A model generated the notes under the pieces. It did no database searches and was not told the DNA's origin. It saw only the letters and a program-made list of their open reading frames with translations. Position numbers and translations under genes: made by a program. A DNA stretch of 39,107 nt from positions 1 to 39,107 of the forward strand of contig JAAWSW010000004.1 of assembly GCA_022801735.1 (NCBI GenBank). The letters run 5' to 3'. Below, piece by piece: positions 2,516 to 27,008 of this stretch; the stretch's first letter is position 1; every line of letters starts with the position of its first letter. Origin of the DNA: Bacilli bacterium (lineage in GTDB: Bacteria; Bacillota_I; Bacilli_A; RF39; UBA660).

Positions 2516-3490
2516 TTATCTGCTTTTAACCTTTTGCATGCCTTTTTTTACTTTACCAATAATAGTTTGACCAGTTTTACGCATTCCAACTGTTTCACGA
2601 CATCTAGAAGCAAGTTCGATACTACTATGTAAATCAATCTCTTTAAAAAATCTTCTAATAGTTTGAGCAACCTTTTTTCTATCGTTAAGTTCCTTTGGAA
2701 TCACATTATATAAATAATTTCTTAGGCAACTAGGTAATTCATCAATTTGCTGTTTTAATGCTTCTTCATCCTGTGATTTTCTATAAACTAGTCCTTCAGG
2801 CCCTTTTTCACCTTCGCACCAATCAACATAAAATTCTGGCAAAGATAAATAAGTTTGCTCAAAAAAGTCATATGAACCTTCTAAAATGTTAGGAATTTTA
2901 TTAGGATCTTCACAATGAACGAGCCTTCTAAAATCACCTAAATATGATAAACTAACAATCGTTTCCAAAAGTTCCTGTGAATTTAAAGAATCTGATTCAT
3001 GCATAAGTAAAGCCGCTCTTGCTGCTGATTTATAATTAAGTCTCATTAATGCAGGTAATACGCCATCACTATTATCAACAATTAAAGTTGTTGGCTTTTG
3101 AAAACGCCCTGCTAACGAAAAACATGACCAATTTTTTAAATCACCATATAATAATCTTTTATCAACTACCATAAGTTTATATTCATGGTTACCAAAGGTT
3201 GCAAAAAAACACCCAAGTGATTCTGGAAAACTCGCTGAATGACTTTGTTTTTCTATTTCTGCAATATCAATTAAATTTTTCCAACCCGCTTCCCTATACA
3301 TGCTAGGATTTTGAAGAAGATTTTTTGCATGCCACAAAGATGGATTATCAACCGAAATAATCAAATCCATAGATTTTTCCTCATCTATCATACTATCTTG
3401 TTCAAAATATCCACTGCCATATGCAGTTACAGAATTAACTTCCGGTAAAACACTAATTAATTCTTGAGTTTCTTCTTGTATACTTTTCAT
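2516..3490 (-). CDS. Tam41/Mmp37-like nucleotidyltransferase (putative CDP-diacylglycerol synthase), copy 2
   Basis: AYGSGYFEQ...MDLIISVDNPSLWHAKNLLQNPSMY and LLYGDLKNWSCFSLAGRFQKP resemble Tam41/Mmp37; paralogous to the adjacent ORF. Confidence 0.75.
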   Translation of the reverse strand: MKSIQEETQELISVLPEVNSVTAYGSGYFEQDSMIDEEKSMDLIISVDNPSLWHAKNLLQNPSMYREAGWKNLIDIAEIEKQSHSASFPESLGCFFATFGNHEYKLMVVDKRLLYGDLKNWSCFSLAGRFQKPTTLIVDNSDGVLPALMRLNYKSAARAALLMHESDSLNSQELLETIVSLSYLGDFRRLVHCEDPNKIPNILEGSYDFFEQTYLSLPEFYVDWCEGEKGPEGLVYRKSQDEEALKQQIDELPSCLRNYLYNVIPKELNDRKKVAQTIRRFFKEIDLHSSIELASRCRETVGMRKTGQTIIGKVKKGMQKVKSR

Positions 3491-3505
3491 AATATTCCCC
3501 CTGTA

Positions 3506-4375
3506 CTACTTCCCTTTTTTACGCTTTAATTTTTGTGCTACATATTTGATAGATTTAATAGGTCCAGTTGTTAATAATCCTTTAACAGTTTGTGACATAC
3601 TTTGATTTCTATTCTTGTTAACCAAAAACTGTCTTATACCATCACTTATAGTCCCTTTATAATCCATCAAATACTTTTGCATATCATCAGGTAATGTTTT
3701 AATATCCTCTTCTTCTACTACTACATTACCCCGTTTGAATTTCAATTCCTTCCCATATGTATCATGATAAAAATCAAATCTTCCCTTTACTATATTTAAA
3801 ACTTTATCAGGATTCTCTGCAATCCCCATTCTTGTATCACCAAGATAAGAAAGGCCTGCTAAAATAGTATAAAAATACTCTTCATCATATTCACCTTTCC
3901 CTAGCAACAATTTCGAACTAAGTAAACCAGCATGTCTGTTATATTCAATAGCAGACTCTATTTCCTTTGGCGCCTTTACAACTAAAATAGGTTTCTGCAT
4001 TCTACCAGCCATATAAAAGGTTTCCCAATTTTTTAAATCTGCTAAAAAGTCATCTTTTTCAATTGTTCCAATCTTATACTCTTGACCATTGAATGCTATA
4101 TATGTCATATAAGTTATTTTTCCACCTTTTCTCATATACCTTCTAGAAGCAAATTTAAAGAATAACTTACCTGAAAAAGAATAATCACGAGGATTTAATT
4201 TGATATTTTCTTTATGCCACTGCTTTAAATTATTTACTACTACAATAAGGTCAATTTGTGGTTTTCTATTCTCCTGACCATATTGTACGTTAATCCCAGA
4301 ACCATAACCAATAACTGCTACTGTTTCTGGTCTATTATCCATAAATTTCAAAATTTCTTCTTCTGGTTTCACCAT
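3506..4375 (-). CDS. Tam41/Mmp37-like nucleotidyltransferase (putative CDP-diacylglycerol synthase), copy 1
   Basis: GYGSGINVQYGQ...IDLIVVVNNLKQWHKENIKLNPRDYS and DFLADLKNWETFYMAGRMQKPI; same architecture as 2516..3490. Confidence 0.72.
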   Translation of the reverse strand: MVKPEEEILKFMDNRPETVAVIGYGSGINVQYGQENRKPQIDLIVVVNNLKQWHKENIKLNPRDYSFSGKLFFKFASRRYMRKGGKITYMTYIAFNGQEYKIGTIEKDDFLADLKNWETFYMAGRMQKPILVVKAPKEIESAIEYNRHAGLLSSKLLLGKGEYDEEYFYTILAGLSYLGDTRMGIAENPDKVLNIVKGRFDFYHDTYGKELKFKRGNVVVEEEDIKTLPDDMQKYLMDYKGTISDGIRQFLVNKNRNQSMSQTVKGLLTTGPIKSIKYVAQKLKRKKGK

Positions 4376-4644
4376 AAATCCTCCTATAATTATTTCCTAC
4401 AATTGTTACAAATTAATTAAAACAAATATAGTACACAATATTATAACACAATATCCTTTTTCTGCACCATTTTTTATTATAAAATATCAAAATATTCTAA
4501 CAAAATTATACCACAAATATTAATATAATCATATACAAAATAACAGCCGCATATAATAAACAATAATAAAAAATAACATTTTTCAATAAAATATATTGAT
4601 TTTTTATAAATTATATGATACAATTTATAAGCAATGTTGTTTTT

Positions 4645-4721
4645 GGGGAATTAGCTCAGTTGGCTAGAGCACCTGCTTTGCACGCAGGGGGTCAAGGGTT
4701 CGAGTCCCTTATTCTCCACCA
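4645..4721 (+). tRNA. tRNA-Ala(TGC), CCA encoded
   Basis: GGGGAAT/ATTCTCC acceptor stem, anticodon loop TTTGCAC, TTCGAGTCC T-arm. Confidence 0.97.
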
Positions 4722-4732
4722 ATATGTTAATT

Positions 4733-4762
4733 AAAACCGTTGAATTTCAACGGTTTTCTTTA
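4733..4762 (+). terminator. Rho-independent terminator after tRNA-Ala
   Basis: AAAACCGTTGA-att-TCAACGGTTTT followed by a T-rich tract. Confidence 0.85.
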
Positions 4763-4932
4763 TTTTTTAGAATTCCTGACCCCTCTGCATGCAAAAAGTT
4801 CATCACATTTTTGTTAGAAAATATAATGAAACAATAATATAACTAACTTTTATATATTTCCCTCCCATTTTTTTCTAAATTAATGTATAATATAAAAAAT
4901 AGGAGTGATTGGATGAATTCGTTGTGGGCTGT

Positions 4933-5685
4933 ATGTTGTATAATATTGTGATTTGTGATGATAATTTAAATGATTTAAATATAATTACAGAAAAAATAAG
5001 TAATTATTTTGATCAGCAAAAAAATATATATTTTAAAATTCATTCATTTAATGACTATAACAATAAATTTATTGACTTTATTTATAATAATAGATTAACT
5101 AATCTAATTTATTTATTGGACATTGAAACTCCTAGTGGAGATGGATTTGATATAGCGAGAACCATAAAACGATTCGATGCCAATATTCCAATTATTTATA
5201 TAACTGGCCACCATGAAAAGCACATTAATAAAGCACTTAAAAGTTGCGATATGGATGGCTATATAAATAAATTTAATAATTTAGAAAATGAGTTAATAGA
5301 AAAATTTGATAAAATTTTAGCTGAAAAAGGTAAAAAATACATATTTCATATCAAAGGTAATAATGTCACATATATTTTAAATGTTAAAAATATTAATTGT
5401 TTTACTACTGATATTGACAGAAAAAACCAAATAAGAATAATAGGAAATTATTATCCAAATATACATTTAAGCATAAGATCTTTATATATACAGTTAGATA
5501 GTCGCTTTATAAAAACACACCAATCTTGTATTGTAAATTTAGATAATGTCAAAGAATTTGATATAAAAAACAAAATAATATATTTTAAAGATAAAAGCCA
5601 TACAGATTTAATTTCTCGTAACTTCTTTAAAAAGAATAAAGAATGGTTATTGGAACACTATTCGGACAAAATTATTTTTAAATAA
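4933..5685 (+). CDS. AgrA-like response regulator with receiver and LytTR DNA-binding domains (orphan)
   Basis: IVICDDN...YLLDIETPSGDGFDIAR...ITGHHEKH receiver and FIKTHQSCIVNLDNVKEF LytTR motif. Track ORF starts at a TTG (4909); ATG at 4933 is the likelier start. Confidence 0.88.
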   Translation: MLYNIVICDDNLNDLNIITEKISNYFDQQKNIYFKIHSFNDYNNKFIDFIYNNRLTNLIYLLDIETPSGDGFDIARTIKRFDANIPIIYITGHHEKHINKALKSCDMDGYINKFNNLENELIEKFDKILAEKGKKYIFHIKGNNVTYILNVKNINCFTTDIDRKNQIRIIGNYYPNIHLSIRSLYIQLDSRFIKTHQSCIVNLDNVKEFDIKNKIIYFKDKSHTDLISRNFFKKNKEWLLEHYSDKIIFK

Positions 5686-5783
5686 CTTTACTTGCAAAAA
5701 CCTTCTACACAAGGTTTTTAATTAATAAACTGCTGTAATAAATAATCTCATTTATAATTAACAATTTAAACAAAATTAAAAAC

Positions 5784-5813
5784 ACCATTCATTAAATGAA
5801 CGGAGTTTTTTAA
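5784..5813. terminator. Imperfect inverted repeat with flanking A/T tracts, probable terminator
   Basis: aaaaacaccattcat-taa-atgaacggagttttt hairpin followed by T-run. Confidence 0.6.
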
Positions 5814-5989
5814 TCAAACAAATTATATTTATATATATTTCATAAAACTAAACTTTACTAACTTCTAAGTTTTTATAAAAAATTGAATAATCCAAGTTTG
5901 CAAAATGTCACGGATTTTTACAGAATGTCACATTTCTATTTATTTCTTATTTAAAATATGATAACCTTATGCTAGGAAAGGAGAAGGTT

Positions 5990-6133
5990 ATGAAAGTTAA
6001 ATATAGGAAACTACAAAACGTAATATTTTTGAAAATTAAAAAAGAAGATAAAGAAATATTTATCATCAATGAAAAATACAAAAAAAGGCTAGAATGCTCT
6101 GGCAAGCAAACTAGCAATTATACGAAAAAATAA
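5990..6133 (+). CDS. Small 47-aa basic ORF, function unknown
   Basis: ATG after AAAGGAGAAGG Shine-Dalgarno; MKVKYRKLQNVIFLKIKKEDKEIFIINEKYKKRLECSGKQTSNYTKK; not in the supplied ORF track. Confidence 0.5.
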   Translation: MKVKYRKLQNVIFLKIKKEDKEIFIINEKYKKRLECSGKQTSNYTKK

Positions 6134-6337
6134 CAGCACGAACCATTGTTTTTTCGCACTTCAATTTTAACACTTTTCAAAAAAAAATACAAGATTGGAG
6201 GAAATAATATACCAATTAATAATGAAATTAATGAATAATAAAAAGAAGATAATACATAAAAAGATAGAATTCTTTTTTATAACAAAAACTCTGGGAATGA
6301 ACTGAACCCCATAAGTTGGACAGTTTATAAGTAGTTT

Positions 6338-6556
6338 CTAGTTAGAGGATTGTAACCTGTAATTTACAGGAGACAGTCCTTTTAATTTTACTTTAATTCT
6401 ATCATGATTATAATAATAAATATAGTCATCTATTGCTAAAATTAACTCATCTATTGTTTTATATTTATCTTCTTGGTCATAAAACATTTCTGTTTTTAAA
6501 AGTCCAAAGAAATTTTCCATCATGCCATTATCCATACTGTTGCCTTTTCTGGACAT
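6338..6556 (-). pseudogene. IS3-family transposase OrfB, C-terminal fragment
   Basis: KQSMSRKGNSMDNGMMENFFGLLKTEMFY...YYYNHDRIKVKLKGLSPVNYR; N-terminal DDE core missing. Confidence 0.9.
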
Positions 6557-6579
6557 ACTTTGTTTAATTCCTTTATTTT

Positions 6580-6795
6580 TTAATCTTTGTTGATCATCCT
6601 TTCCTTATCTTGTGCGGAATAATATTTATTTTTAACTGTTCTTAAAGCATCAAATCCATGTCTATCAATCAATCTGATAGTATATTTTATTAATTCTATA
6701 TTCACTTTGTATTTTTTTACTAATTTACTTAATGATAATCCTTTTTTTCTATCTTTGTACATATCTATTTTATCTTCGTAACTTAATTTGCTCAT
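6580..6795 (-). pseudogene. IS3-family OrfA N-terminal HTH fragment
   Basis: MSKLSYEDKIDMYKDRKKGLSLSKLVKKYKVNIELIKYTIRLIDRHG; runs out of frame into the OrfB fragment. Confidence 0.85.
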
Positions 6796-6854
6796 ATAAA
6801 AACCTCGTTTCTATGTCCTAGAAACGGGGTTCATATCATATCCAGAGTTTTTTT

Positions 6855-7718
6855 CTATTTAAGTTCTAATTTTTTATATAATTCATCTAAATTACTAGCA
6901 TCATCAGTATAACCACCAATTTCAGATACAACTTTCTTATCCTTAATGGCTAAAGTAAGTGGAGTACCCCAACTATCATTTTCATTAAAATAACTTAATG
7001 AATTAGTTAAAGCTGATCTATCTGAGTCTGATAAAGTATCAATTTGAATAACATAAATTGGTAAATTATTCTTTTCAGTATACTCACCAATTATTGGATT
7101 AAACTGTTGACAATATCCACAACTTGTTTGTTCTAAAACCAATACAAAAGGATTTCCACTATCATATAAACACTTATATTGTTCGTATGTAATTTCAGCT
7201 ACATTTTCATATTCTTCAGTCGCTTTTACATCACAAGCAAACTTTGATAAATTTGACTCTTTTAAGAATGTATTTAATTTATCACTATCACTTAAAATTG
7301 ATTCTTTAAAATTATCAATTTTCTTACCTTTAAATACAATAATAACATCATTTTTAAATGAATCATCATTATACTTTAATTCCTTTTTTATCACTTTCAT
7401 ATCTTCATCAGAAATATTTTGAACATCTAAATAATATAAAGCATGACCAATTTGTTTTGCTGACTTATTCAAAATGCTCTTCTCTTTTTTACTTAAATCA
7501 TTAGCAACTACTAATGCATTTTTATCCTTGCTCTCATATAAACATTGATATTGTTTATAATTCACTTTTCCAAGTTTTTCATAATCTCCATCTGCTTTTA
7601 CACCACATATAAATGTTCTATCTTTTTCAGGCCAAAAACTAATAAGTAAAATTAATCCAATAACTGCCACGATAACAACAAATATAGTAATTAAACGTTT
7701 ATTCTCATTCATATTCAT
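6855..7718 (-). CDS. Membrane-anchored thioredoxin-like protein with duplicated domain
   Basis: N-terminal TM segment; second repeat carries SCGYCQQF (CxxC). Repeats: FICGVKADGDYEKLGKVNYKQYQCLYES and FACDVKATEEYENVAEITYEQYKCLYDS. Confidence 0.8.
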   Translation of the reverse strand: MNMNENKRLITIFVVIVAVIGLILLISFWPEKDRTFICGVKADGDYEKLGKVNYKQYQCLYESKDKNALVVANDLSKKEKSILNKSAKQIGHALYYLDVQNISDEDMKVIKKELKYNDDSFKNDVIIVFKGKKIDNFKESILSDSDKLNTFLKESNLSKFACDVKATEEYENVAEITYEQYKCLYDSGNPFVLVLEQTSCGYCQQFNPIIGEYTEKNNLPIYVIQIDTLSDSDRSALTNSLSYFNENDSWGTPLTLAIKDKKVVSEIGGYTDDASNLDELYKKLELK

Positions 7719-13417: not shown

Positions 13418-13589
13418 GATATTCACCTCATCTCTAATATTCAAATACATCCATACTATTTAACTTTATGAAATAAATAAAAGTAAAATGATAAAATATC
13501 AAATTTATAAATTATTTGGGTAATTCATTTACACCCTTTTACGCGCCCCAGCATATGTTATATTGAGAATAAATGAAGGGGTGGATTAT

Positions 13590-14036
13590 ATGTGTAATAA
13601 CAATAACAATTCAAATGAATGTAGATGCATTTCTGAAATCTTAACAGTTATCAACATTTTACAAGATAATGCAGAATGTAATGATGCATGTTTAGATACA
13701 TGCGATCGTGGTTTCTTAGGATGTTCAGTATCTACATTAGGTTGTAACACAAGACCAGTAGTATTATATACTTGCTGCGGAAATGGTACACCATGGTCAA
13801 TGCCAACAACTAAAGAAGACGTTGTTTGTGGTACACCAGGTGTAACATGCTCAAACGTATTTAGAGTAGAAAAAGTAGATGGATGCTGTGCTACCTTTAG
13901 AGTACTTGCTCCAAATCCTGACACTACAGAAGTTGACACTATACCATATGTTGCAACAAATAGTTTCTTTACAATGAATCTAAATTGTGTTTGTGCATTA
14001 AGATGTTTACAAGACACACACGTAGAATGTGTATAA
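13590..14036 (+). CDS. Spore coat protein, CotY/CotZ family
   Basis: Cys-rich CNNNNNSNECRCISEILTVINILQDNAE...GFLGC...CCGNGTPWSMP...CATFRVL; SD GAAGGGGTGG before ATG 13590. Confidence 0.85.
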   Translation: MCNNNNNSNECRCISEILTVINILQDNAECNDACLDTCDRGFLGCSVSTLGCNTRPVVLYTCCGNGTPWSMPTTKEDVVCGTPGVTCSNVFRVEKVDGCCATFRVLAPNPDTTEVDTIPYVATNSFFTMNLNCVCALRCLQDTHVECV

Positions 14037-23104: not shown

Positions 23105-23341
23105 GCTTACATCTCCCTTCTAATTAAATTCCTTACAACCTTACTATACACCTAAATTGCCCTACTTGTAGCAAATTCTGAAATACAAAATCCGACAAAA
23201 TTTGCAAAATAGGAAATACCAATGTTGTAGGTAATTTGTATTTTACTATAAAAAGTCCATCTTGTTTCAAAACTTGCGTCAAGGTATCATTTTCGTGCAT
23301 GAATGATTCAAAGTGTCGCAAGTAATAACACATCGGCTATC

Positions 23342-23372
23342 ATTCACACAGGCTCCACCCATGATTCACACA
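23342..23372. promoter_or_regulatory. Candidate LytTR/AgrA-type tandem binding site upstream of agrB
   Basis: ATTCACACA repeated exactly at 23342 and 23364 (9 bp, 13-bp spacer, 22-bp period), 67 bp before the agrB start. Confidence 0.5.
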
Positions 23373-23438: not shown

Positions 23439-24038
23439 ATGAAAGAATTATTTGTTGGCACTTCTATTGATATAATAAAAAAACAATGTCCCGAGTATAG
23501 TAATATAAAACTAGAAGAGATAAAATATGGATTAGCCAGTTTATATTTAACAATTTCTAAAACAATTGTTATTGGTACTATGGCATATATTTTAGGGATT
23601 TTAACAGAATTAATTATTTTTACTATAATATACAACCTACTAAGAATGACATCATTTGGTTTGCATGCGACCAAAAGTTGGATATGTTTATTATCTTCAT
23701 CAATAATTTTCATGGGATGCCCTTATCTATGTTATATAGTAACCATCCCTATATTGCTCAAATTTATTATTGGAATAGTTGGAGTAATATTAATATTTAA
23801 AAACAGTCCTGCTGATACTAAAAAGAAGCCAATTATAAATCCTAAAAGGAGAATGGTTTATAAATTAATATCAACACTGACTGCCACTATATTTGTAATA
23901 CTATCATTAACTATATCTGATAACTTTTTATCTAATAGTTTTATATTTTCTATCATATTACAAAATATTATGATATCTAAAATAACCTATAAACTATTTG
24001 GATTACCTTATGATAATTATAAAAATTATCAATTATAA
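23439..24038 (+). CDS. agrB: AgrB-type accessory gene regulator / AIP processing endopeptidase
   Basis: Multi-TM protein with RMTSFGLHATKSWIC (conserved His...Cys catalytic pair context), KKKPIINPKRR. Confidence 0.9.
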   Translation: MKELFVGTSIDIIKKQCPEYSNIKLEEIKYGLASLYLTISKTIVIGTMAYILGILTELIIFTIIYNLLRMTSFGLHATKSWICLLSSSIIFMGCPYLCYIVTIPILLKFIIGIVGVILIFKNSPADTKKKPIINPKRRMVYKLISTLTATIFVILSLTISDNFLSNSFIFSIILQNIMISKITYKLFGLPYDNYKNYQL

Positions 24039-24070: not shown

Positions 24071-24190
24071 ATGTCATTTATAGCAGCAATACTTGCTAAT
24101 TTAGGTGGTTTATTTGCTAACATAGGAAGCCAAATGTGTGGATTTTGGTGGTATGATGAAGAAGAAACACCAAAAAGTTTAATAAAATAA
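24071..24190 (+). CDS. agrD: AgrD-like autoinducing pro-peptide (39 aa)
   Basis: MSFIAAILANLGGLFANIGSQMCGFWWYDEEETPKSLIK: amphipathic leader, single Cys with aromatic core, acidic tail DEEETPKSL; SD AGAAGGGAG; directly after agrB; absent from the ORF track. Confidence 0.88.
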   Translation: MSFIAAILANLGGLFANIGSQMCGFWWYDEEETPKSLIK

Positions 24191-24224
24191 CATACAATCA
24201 AATAACAAACGAATAACAAACAAA

Positions 24225-24258
24225 AAAATGTAGAACGAGTAAATTCTACATTTTTATT
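24225..24258. terminator. Bidirectional terminator between convergent agrBD and agrCA
   Basis: AAAATGTAGAA-cgagtaaa-TTCTACATTTT with T-run on + and A-run on the other side. Confidence 0.8.
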
Positions 24259-25553
24259 TTTAATCTTTGTGTAAACATATCTCTACAAATCTCTTTTTCA
24301 TTTTCCAAACTAGAATCACCTCTAATTATTTCATCAACTAAGGATAATCCATAACCATGGCCTTTTCCTTTTGTTGTATAACCCTTATTACCAATCTTAT
24401 CTACGGCAAGATTACCAGAATAATTATTAGATATATCAATACATAAATAACCATCCATATTATATAACTCAACTGTAATAATTTGTTTCTTTAATTTTTC
24501 AACTTCCTCAATGGAATTATCTAAAAATACTCCCATTATTTTACAAATATTAAGCATTGTTCCATCATCTAAATTAATCAAATCAGATGTTTTTACATCT
24601 CTTGAAATTTCAAGTGCATACTTAATTTTCATTTCTTTCATCTTACATAATTTAGAATAAATAATTGAACGAAGTCCTCCTTCAGGAATCTTTTCTGTTT
24701 TCTTAAATATACCTTCATTATCTTTAGATTTATTATCGATAAGTTTATCTATATAATTAATTGTAGTTTTATCTTCTGACTTTATCATATTTCTAATTAT
24801 TAATAATTGATTTTTATTTTCATGATTAGTAACTCTATATTTATCCATCATAGTTTCATGTTCACGCAAACTAGATAGACTAGTTGCATATTTATTACTT
24901 ACTTTTCTATAATTTTCTCTTACATTAGAAAGTCTTAAAATAACAAAAACATAAAGAATTATTAAAATAGTATTACAAGTTAAAATCACTATAGGTGGTA
25001 AATCAATATATGTCATCACCATAAATAAACTTGCTAAAATAACAGTTATAACAAAATTCAAAACTAAATTATTACTTTTAAGGTTGCCTGCCAATTTATA
25101 TAATACACCATATATCTTATATGGTATTGGTGTTTTTAAAGATAAAAATGCCAATACAGGTACACCAAGATTAATTACTAACATACCTAATAAATTATGA
25201 TTTACATTATCAGGGTTTGATTCAATAAATGTAAATGTTATTACAACCAAAATCAATTCACAAATCATAGCAATAAACTCTGATACTACGACTGTTAAGA
25301 ATGCTTTCTCAACATTTCTAAATAACCAATAACACAATACAAATAGTATTAATATCACTAAAAATATTTTCAAAAATTGTGGCAAATAAAAATTAACTAT
25401 AGTACTACCTAAAGTGGCTAATATTACACCAAGGTAAATTTTATAATTTTTAAAATCTATTTTAATATTTAATAATTTATGCCAACAATTAACCATAAAC
25501 ATAGCCAATACTGAAGTACCCACTATATACACAATCAAAATTTCTAAATCCAT
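24246..25553 (-). CDS. agrC: AgrC-like sensor histidine kinase (HPK10 type)
   Basis: Polytopic N-terminus, TNHENKNQLLIIRNMI phosphoacceptor region, FLDNSIEEVEK and GKGHGYGLSLV ATPase motifs. Confidence 0.9.
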   Translation of the reverse strand: MDLEILIVYIVGTSVLAMFMVNCWHKLLNIKIDFKNYKIYLGVILATLGSTIVNFYLPQFLKIFLVILILFVLCYWLFRNVEKAFLTVVVSEFIAMICELILVVITFTFIESNPDNVNHNLLGMLVINLGVPVLAFLSLKTPIPYKIYGVLYKLAGNLKSNNLVLNFVITVILASLFMVMTYIDLPPIVILTCNTILIILYVFVILRLSNVRENYRKVSNKYATSLSSLREHETMMDKYRVTNHENKNQLLIIRNMIKSEDKTTINYIDKLIDNKSKDNEGIFKKTEKIPEGGLRSIIYSKLCKMKEMKIKYALEISRDVKTSDLINLDDGTMLNICKIMGVFLDNSIEEVEKLKKQIITVELYNMDGYLCIDISNNYSGNLAVDKIGNKGYTTKGKGHGYGLSLVDEIIRGDSSLENEKEICRDMFTQRLKIKM

Positions 25554-25554
25554 A

Positions 25555-26256
25555 TTATATCAACTCTCCCTCAAATCTTGTAGATACTAGATCTATTTGT
25601 TCACCAGTATCAAACATTATAATTTTTTTATTCTTATTAAACCTAACCACTCTTTTTCTATTAACTACACATGCCCTATGTGTTTTTATAAAAGATGGAT
25701 TAAGTGATTTCGTTATTTCATTTAAACTTTTATTCAATGTAAATTCTGCATAATCAGTTTTAATTATACATTTTCTCTCCATACTTTCTTTAACAATATA
25801 TAAAATATCGTCTAAAGCAATTGTATATATTGTTCCGCAATCTTTAACTCTAAGCATTTTTCTTACCTTTAACATTTGTAATGCCTTATCTATAGCCAAT
25901 GATAATTTAATATCAGTATTATCAAATTTATTAATAAATGTTAAAAATGAAAGTTGATTTTTAGAAACTGAATCGCTAAGTTCTTGATGCCCTGTTAAAA
26001 ATATAATTACACTGTCCACATCTTCCTTTCTTATCATTCGAGCAATATCCACACCAGAACCATTTGGAAGTTCAATATCCAGTATATATACTTTAAAAGA
26101 CTCATTATTATTTACCATATTTATAATATTTTGATTATAATCATCAAATTCATGAATATGATATTCAAAATCATTTTTCATCATATAACTAGTGATAATA
26201 GAGGCAATCTTATGCCTATAACCTTGGTTATCTTCACAAATAATAAAATTTATCAT
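25555..26256 (-). CDS. agrA: AgrA-like LytTR response regulator
   Basis: FIICEDNQGYR...YILDIELPNGSGVDIARMIR...FIKTHRACVVNRKRVVRFN. Confidence 0.92.
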   Translation of the reverse strand: MINFIICEDNQGYRHKIASIITSYMMKNDFEYHIHEFDDYNQNIINMVNNNESFKVYILDIELPNGSGVDIARMIRKEDVDSVIIFLTGHQELSDSVSKNQLSFLTFINKFDNTDIKLSLAIDKALQMLKVRKMLRVKDCGTIYTIALDDILYIVKESMERKCIIKTDYAEFTLNKSLNEITKSLNPSFIKTHRACVVNRKRVVRFNKNKKIIMFDTGEQIDLVSTRFEGELI

Positions 26257-26381: not shown

Positions 26382-26409
26382 AAAACAAAGAACGAATTAT
26401 CTTTGTTTT
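26382..26409. terminator. Hairpin at the 3' end of the lipoprotein gene
   Basis: AAAACAAAGA-acgaatta-TCTTTGTTTT. Confidence 0.6.
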
Positions 26410-27008
26410 CCCTCACTTTTTTCTTTCGCATCATCTAACCAATTAGTGCCTTTATCCATAACATAAGCACCTAAATCTGTACTCTTATCCCATAGCCACT
26501 CACCAGCATCTGATAATTTCTCTTTAGCCTTTTCCTTATACTCTGGTATATAACTTTCAATATAACTATCCAAAGTTCCTAAAGAATTTTTTGCCATTTC
26601 TACTGTACTATCAGAAACATCATTAATTGTATATCCATTAATTTCTTCACCATTAAACAAGAAATTAAAAATAGTATCAAAATTATCCATTGCTTGTTCT
26701 TTAGTTTTCTGATAAGACTCAGTCTGCTTAACTTCATCCGTTGCATTTGCAAGTTCAGAAGCACTATCAGTCATAATAGTAATTGCCGCTTCTACAGCAT
26801 TAGATCCTTCAACTTTATCATATTCTTTTTCAACAAAATTTTTCTCTTCTGTACTTACTGCTACATCATCAACACTTTGTTCATTAGTAATATTTTCCTC
26901 ATTGCTATTTTTGGTTTCATTTACACCACATCCAACCAAAGTAAAAGATAAACCTCCAGCAAGTAACATCATAACCATCTTCTTTGACAAATTTAGATTT
27001 CTAGTCAT
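26397..27008 (-). CDS. Hypothetical lipoprotein
   Basis: Lipobox LVGCG after a hydrophobic signal; low-complexity polar linker; C-terminal helical EWLWDKSTDLGAYVMDKGTNWLDDAKEK. Confidence 0.8.
   Translation of the reverse strand: MTRNLNLSKKMVMMLLAGGLSFTLVGCGVNETKNSNEENITNEQSVDDVAVSTEEKNFVEKEYDKVEGSNAVEAAITIMTDSASELANATDEVKQTESYQKTKEQAMDNFDTIFNFLFNGEEINGYTINDVSDSTVEMAKNSLGTLDSYIESYIPEYKEKAKEKLSDAGEWLWDKSTDLGAYVMDKGTNWLDDAKEKSEGKQR

Follow-up and report, generated by a model that had tools for sequence, protein, structure and literature searches.

Genes and features of the agr locus

Four complete and adjacent genes of an agr-type system were found in the window (the whole 39,107-nucleotide stretch of DNA analyzed), with agrB and agrD on the plus strand converging on agrC and agrA on the minus strand. 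The agrB gene (23439..24038, +) encodes a membrane peptidase/cyclase with catalytic His76 and Cys83 that matched PF04647 (105 bits, E 3.6e-30), and R69, H76, C83, and K129 were invariant in 35 AgrB sequences. It is followed by the short agrD gene (24071..24190, +), beyond which lie agrC (24246..25553, −), encoding a sensor histidine kinase with a variable N-terminal sensor (residues ~1 to 220) and a GHKL kinase domain (PF14501, 51 bits), and agrA (25555..26256, −), encoding a LytTR response regulator (PF00072, PF04397) with phospho-acceptor Asp60. A hairpin with A and T runs on its flanks (24224..24255; 12-pair stem, fold z = −3.8) separates the convergent ends of agrD and agrC and is likely a shared terminator. 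Two features expected of an agr system were present: an adjacent agrB with the catalytic His and Cys (PF04647, H76/C83), and an AgrC kinase with a variable membrane sensor together with a LytTR AgrA.

Mean pairwise identity of AgrC across the genus, taken per 20-residue segment, was 0.20 to 0.41 over the first 220 residues and 0.57 to 0.77 in the kinase part, in which H244, N346, G400, and G402 were invariant across the genus sequences compared. A variable sensor joined to a conserved kinase is the pattern that would be expected of a sensor tracking a changing ligand. Asp60 of AgrA was invariant (n = 24 sequences), and the best NCBIfam match of this protein was AgrA itself (NF046049), at 63.4 bits against a cut-off of 400. 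The 1.24-Mb genome encodes a single AgrB, and it also encodes a CPBP/Rce1-like protease and a signal peptidase, so that removal of the AgrD leader is possible. An Rfam scan of the window returned tRNAs only, with no RNAIII; searches of solved structures with AgrB and AgrD gave no matches; and AgrB was absent from the phage records searched, so there was no sign of a phage-borne agr system.

Other features of the window included an AgrA-like LytTR response regulator gene (4909-5685, +; 32% identity to AgrA) without an adjoining kinase gene; a predicted lipoprotein gene beside agrA (26397-27008, −; signal sequence ending LVGCG) with no convincing family match; a gene for a spore coat protein of the CotZ family (13563-14036, +; PF10612, 58.9 bits) in this 1.24-Mb genome; and, by reading, an apparently broken insertion-sequence transposase gene on the minus strand (~6300-6830).

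The agrD gene and its product

The agrD open reading frame has an ATG start and 39 codons, and its product is MSFIAAILANLGGLFANIGSQMCGFWWYDEEETPKSLIK. The first-pass annotation had placed it 33 bp after agrB behind a good Shine-Dalgarno sequence; 32 bases separate the agrB stop (24038) from the agrD ATG, and a good Shine-Dalgarno sequence lies within AAGTAAGAAGGGAGTAAGTACATG, just before the gene. The 39-residue pro-peptide comprises a leader (residues 1 to 22), a predicted macrocycle (C23-G-F-W-W-Y28), and a recognition tail (D29 to K39). A ring Cys and an acidic, Pro-containing tail with Asp-Glu and Leu, as in AgrD, were both found (C23, D29, E30, P34, L37), and to this extent the three-part layout proposed earlier stands; the leader that had been called amphipathic is hydrophobic and only weakly amphipathic, with zero charged residues, a hydrophobic moment of ~0.31, and a mean hydrophobicity of 0.5 to 0.7.

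The first-pass annotation had also proposed an HMM search of the 39-residue frame against AgrD. This search placed the peptide in the NCBI family TIGR04223 (23.8 bits, E 3.8e-5; curated cut-off, 19 bits), with an E value of 3.4e-4 when the whole genome was searched in six frames. The staphylococcal AgrD family of Pfam, PF05931, gave 17 bits, under its gathering score of 22.7 bits, and the peptide is not classed there. The gene had been described as unannotated, which is true of the raw sequence alone, but NCBI's own model would name it.

The ratio of nonsynonymous to synonymous changes in agrD was 0.02 to 0.19 in the tail and 0.33 to 0.58 in the leader; pooled across all agrD pairs, it rose from 0.19 (tail) to 0.58 (leader) and 0.72 (core), with none above 1, and these values are rough because synonymous-site divergence is near saturation. 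The order of the ratios (core > leader > tail) therefore indicates a core freer to vary than the remainder. By the evidence of the family model, the genus-wide homologues, and the mostly synonymous changes, agrD is a genuine gene, beyond chance.

Variation of AgrD across the genus

AgrD homologues were present in 41 of 45 congeneric genomes, including all 14 of those that were ≥90% complete; a first search had found AgrB in 34 of 37 same-genus genomes, its own genome counted. The convergent agrBD/agrCA order was common to the fetched genus loci wherever agrC was in reach; in one (L146), agrC and agrA sit further off. The named records that matched were metagenome-assembled genomes of uncultured Bacilli, Tenericutes, Firmicutes, and Erysipelotrichaceae; the order may be RF39-like.

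The 38 genus AgrDs compared were 38 distinct sequences with 37 distinct hexapeptides at residues 23 to 28. Variation was concentrated in a block between Cys23 and Asp29 (residues 24 to 28), and the positions of highest entropy were 24 (3.46 bits), 25 (2.83), 26 (2.27), and 28 (2.24), the last being occupied by L, F, I, W, or Y. Trp27, present in 33 of the 38, was the most conserved of core positions 24 to 28 and is a signature of the genus, not special to the window's peptide. Glu30, Pro34, Lys35, Leu37, and Lys39 were invariant (38/38), the Asp-Glu pair starting at residue 29 was near-invariant, and residues 20 and 22, before the ring, were conserved. Cys23 was found in 37 of the 38, the exception having Ser (genome G017, locus L142; GSWIFWWDEPKCPKSLIK); an AgrD from another genus likewise has Ser for the ring Cys (G078, L162; ASAWLLLDEPEMPKSLIN). 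Both Ser-bearing precursors are predicted to yield lactone pheromones.

Repeats upstream of agrB

In most relatives, TTGTCTGAATG N10 TTGTCTGAATG forms a tandem repeat of 21-bp period ~155 to 185 bp before the agrB start. Across 34 upstream regions the 21-bp spacing had z = 34, compared with 5 to 20 at other spacings, all of these values being inflated by kinship and by a strong single site. The box pattern occurred at 31 sites in 41 genomes, 22 of them within 300 bp of agrB; its reversed form, used as a control, gave 3. In S. aureus P2, two 9-bp AgrA sites lie 12 bp apart (PMC10482373); the relatives' repeat matches this geometry (21-bp period), from which we infer a putative function as an AgrA box. 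A first de novo scan of the upstream regions for k-mers of length 9 returned mostly A/T runs.

The window's own box is rearranged. Its strong pair, TGTGTGAATCAT / TGTGTGAATGAT (23339..23372, −), is inverted, has a 22-bp period, and is unique in the 1.24-Mb genome at ≤3 mismatches; it is a candidate AgrA box read on the minus strand. A weak forward pair, TTGCGTCAAGG N10 GTGCATGAATG (23274..23305, +), is in register with the genus box, with 2 mismatches to the relaxed pattern; taken by itself, it scored no better than the best shuffle. Over the window's genome, control matches to the relaxed box about equaled the real ones (20 vs 17), and therefore no AgrA regulon is claimed there.

Agr-type repeats were also seen elsewhere in relatives. 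In L167 (genome G016), four half-sites, two direct and two inverted (2680-2780), precede a gene of 1325 codons (2910-6887) for an RHS-repeat/DUF6531 protein that probably carries a signal sequence. In three genomes (G020, G025, and G030; loci L069, L071, and L168), an agr-type box lies ~50 bp before a gene for a small membrane protein that is rich in Cys and zinc-ribbon-like; the copy in G030 had no Pfam match. The RHS-repeat gene of G016 and the zinc-ribbon-like genes are leads only as possible agr targets. In L075 (G025) and L072 (G030), the cold-shock gene adjoining agrB is tandemly duplicated, and another agr-type box lies between the copies.

Proposed processing and ring size

The product of 24071-24190 is, with a probability of roughly 0.93, the pro-peptide (AgrD) of a cyclic peptide pheromone of the agr type. 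The AgrD-like pro-peptide of the first-pass annotation was borne out by the family model, the gene neighborhood, conservation across the genus, and retention of the processing residues. R69, H76, and C83 of AgrB correspond to R70, H77, and C84 of S. aureus AgrB, each numbered one lower, and D29, E30, and L37 of AgrD to D33, E34, and L41 of S. aureus AgrD, each numbered four lower; every one of these S. aureus positions is either required for processing or has been implicated in it (PMC10196373, PMC10482373). Counting against the AgrD reading are the PF05931 score below cut-off, the uncharged and weakly amphipathic leader, the short tail, and the rearranged AgrA box.

The genes and residues observed here, their pattern of conservation, and the geometry of the repeats suggest the following course of cleavage, ring formation, export, sensing, and autoinduction. 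AgrB (His76/Cys83) would recognize the acidic AgrD tail (Asp29, Glu30, Leu37), cleave after Tyr28, and transfer the resulting acyl-enzyme onto the thiol of Cys23, closing CGFWWY as a six-residue thiolactone. The leader would be removed by another protease, either CPBP/MroQ-like or a signal peptidase, and an exotail of at most a few residues would remain. AgrC would detect the secreted peptide through its variable membrane sensor and phosphorylate AgrA at Asp60, and binding of AgrA to the tandem LytTR half-sites 5' of agrB would close the loop.

A ring of five or six residues had been proposed earlier. Taking register as the sole guide, six residues (CGFWWY) are predicted and are the probable size, because S. 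aureus AgrB cleaves directly before Asp-Glu (PMC10196373), here at residue 29, and five residues separate the ring residue from Asp/Glu-Glu in every one of the 38 genus AgrDs. There is precedent in the six-residue ring of the Clostridium acetobutylicum AIP [CVLVTL] (PMC12312760, PMC10301443), and most AgrDs of the family outside the genus keep the six-residue register. The smaller ring, CGFWW, would form if AgrB cut after Trp27 and left Tyr28 on the tail. Five residues is the common AIP ring size (PMC12312760, PMC11297923), Trp27 is the best conserved of residues 24 to 28, and one AgrD from another genus of the family (G173) has five residues before Asp-Glu (CMFAF). Against this smaller ring, position 28 varies as the signal does and not as the tail does, and the scissile bond in S. 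aureus directly precedes Asp-Glu; cleavage after Trp27 is accordingly regarded as unlikely. Similarly doubtful is rearrangement of an exotail-free product by an S-to-N acyl shift into a homodetic cyclic hexapeptide. Such a shift to the homodetic form has been reported for exotail-free Listeria AIPs (PMC11297923), and conservation of residues 20 and 22 means that specificity may sit in the ring alone, but many AIPs retain an exotail (PMC12312760).

Two further explanations would deny the peptide a signaling role at present. The small genome (1.24 Mb) and the degenerate forward box could reflect decay of the agr system in this lineage and a nonfunctional agrD, but all four genes are intact and conserved genus-wide, and the strong repeat pair persists before agrB, making decay very improbable. 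A short, hydrophobic, Trp-rich peptide might be read as an antimicrobial or structural small protein; the adjacent AgrB and AgrC/AgrA, the match to the AgrD model, and the hypervariable core beside a fast-changing sensor domain leave this the least credible explanation of all.

Novelty and comparison with known systems

To our knowledge, the host bacteria are uncultured Bacilli represented by metagenome-assembled genomes only, and nothing on their quorum sensing was found in the literature searched. CGFWW did not occur in that literature and is absent from a 2025 table of known AIPs (PMC12312760), and the window's core was in no other of the 38 genus AgrDs. The pheromone sequence, first noted as unfamiliar, is thus new as far as these sources extend; the kind of system is already known, a textbook, ordinary agr. 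Across this one uncultured genus, at least 37 different signals are predicted, the window's peptide among them. On balance, the genus and part of the family appear to use a six-residue AIP class (within the genus, mainly C-x-x-x-W-hydrophobic), with near species-specific signals that include a natural Ser-lactone. With 37 cores among 38 AgrDs, close species may therefore talk privately within a conserved AgrB/AgrD frame. The locus yields a concrete, synthesizable pheromone, and the matched AgrB/AgrD/AgrC sets of the genus form a natural series, with the recognition tail fixed and the cores changing, that would be useful for testing how AgrB controls ring size and how AgrC reads it.

Nothing was found that excludes the peptide from TIGR04223 (AgrD family cyclic lactone autoinducer peptide). 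C. acetobutylicum likewise has separate agrBD and agrCA units and a six-residue ring (PMC12312760, PMC10301443), but it differs in core sequence and in having a CA_C0082-type LanM-like gene, none of which lies beside the window's locus by open reading frames and family matches. Ser replaces the ring Cys in Clostridioides difficile agr2 (NSA[SSWVA]) and S. pseudintermedius (RIPT[STGFF]) (PMC12312760), as in G017 and G078, whereas the window's peptide has Cys. The agrBDCA system of Staphylococcus aureus (AIP-1, YST[CDFIM]) has the equivalent AgrB (R70/H77/C84) and AgrD (D33/E34/L41) residues, a hypervariable core, and a LytTR AgrA whose tandem sites have a 21-bp period, but its ring is one residue shorter, its genes form a single operon, and RNAIII is present. 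The likeness drawn earlier between the two AgrD tails holds for the Asp-Glu and Leu equivalents but not for length, which is 11 residues in the window's peptide and 14 to 15 in S. aureus (PMC10196373).
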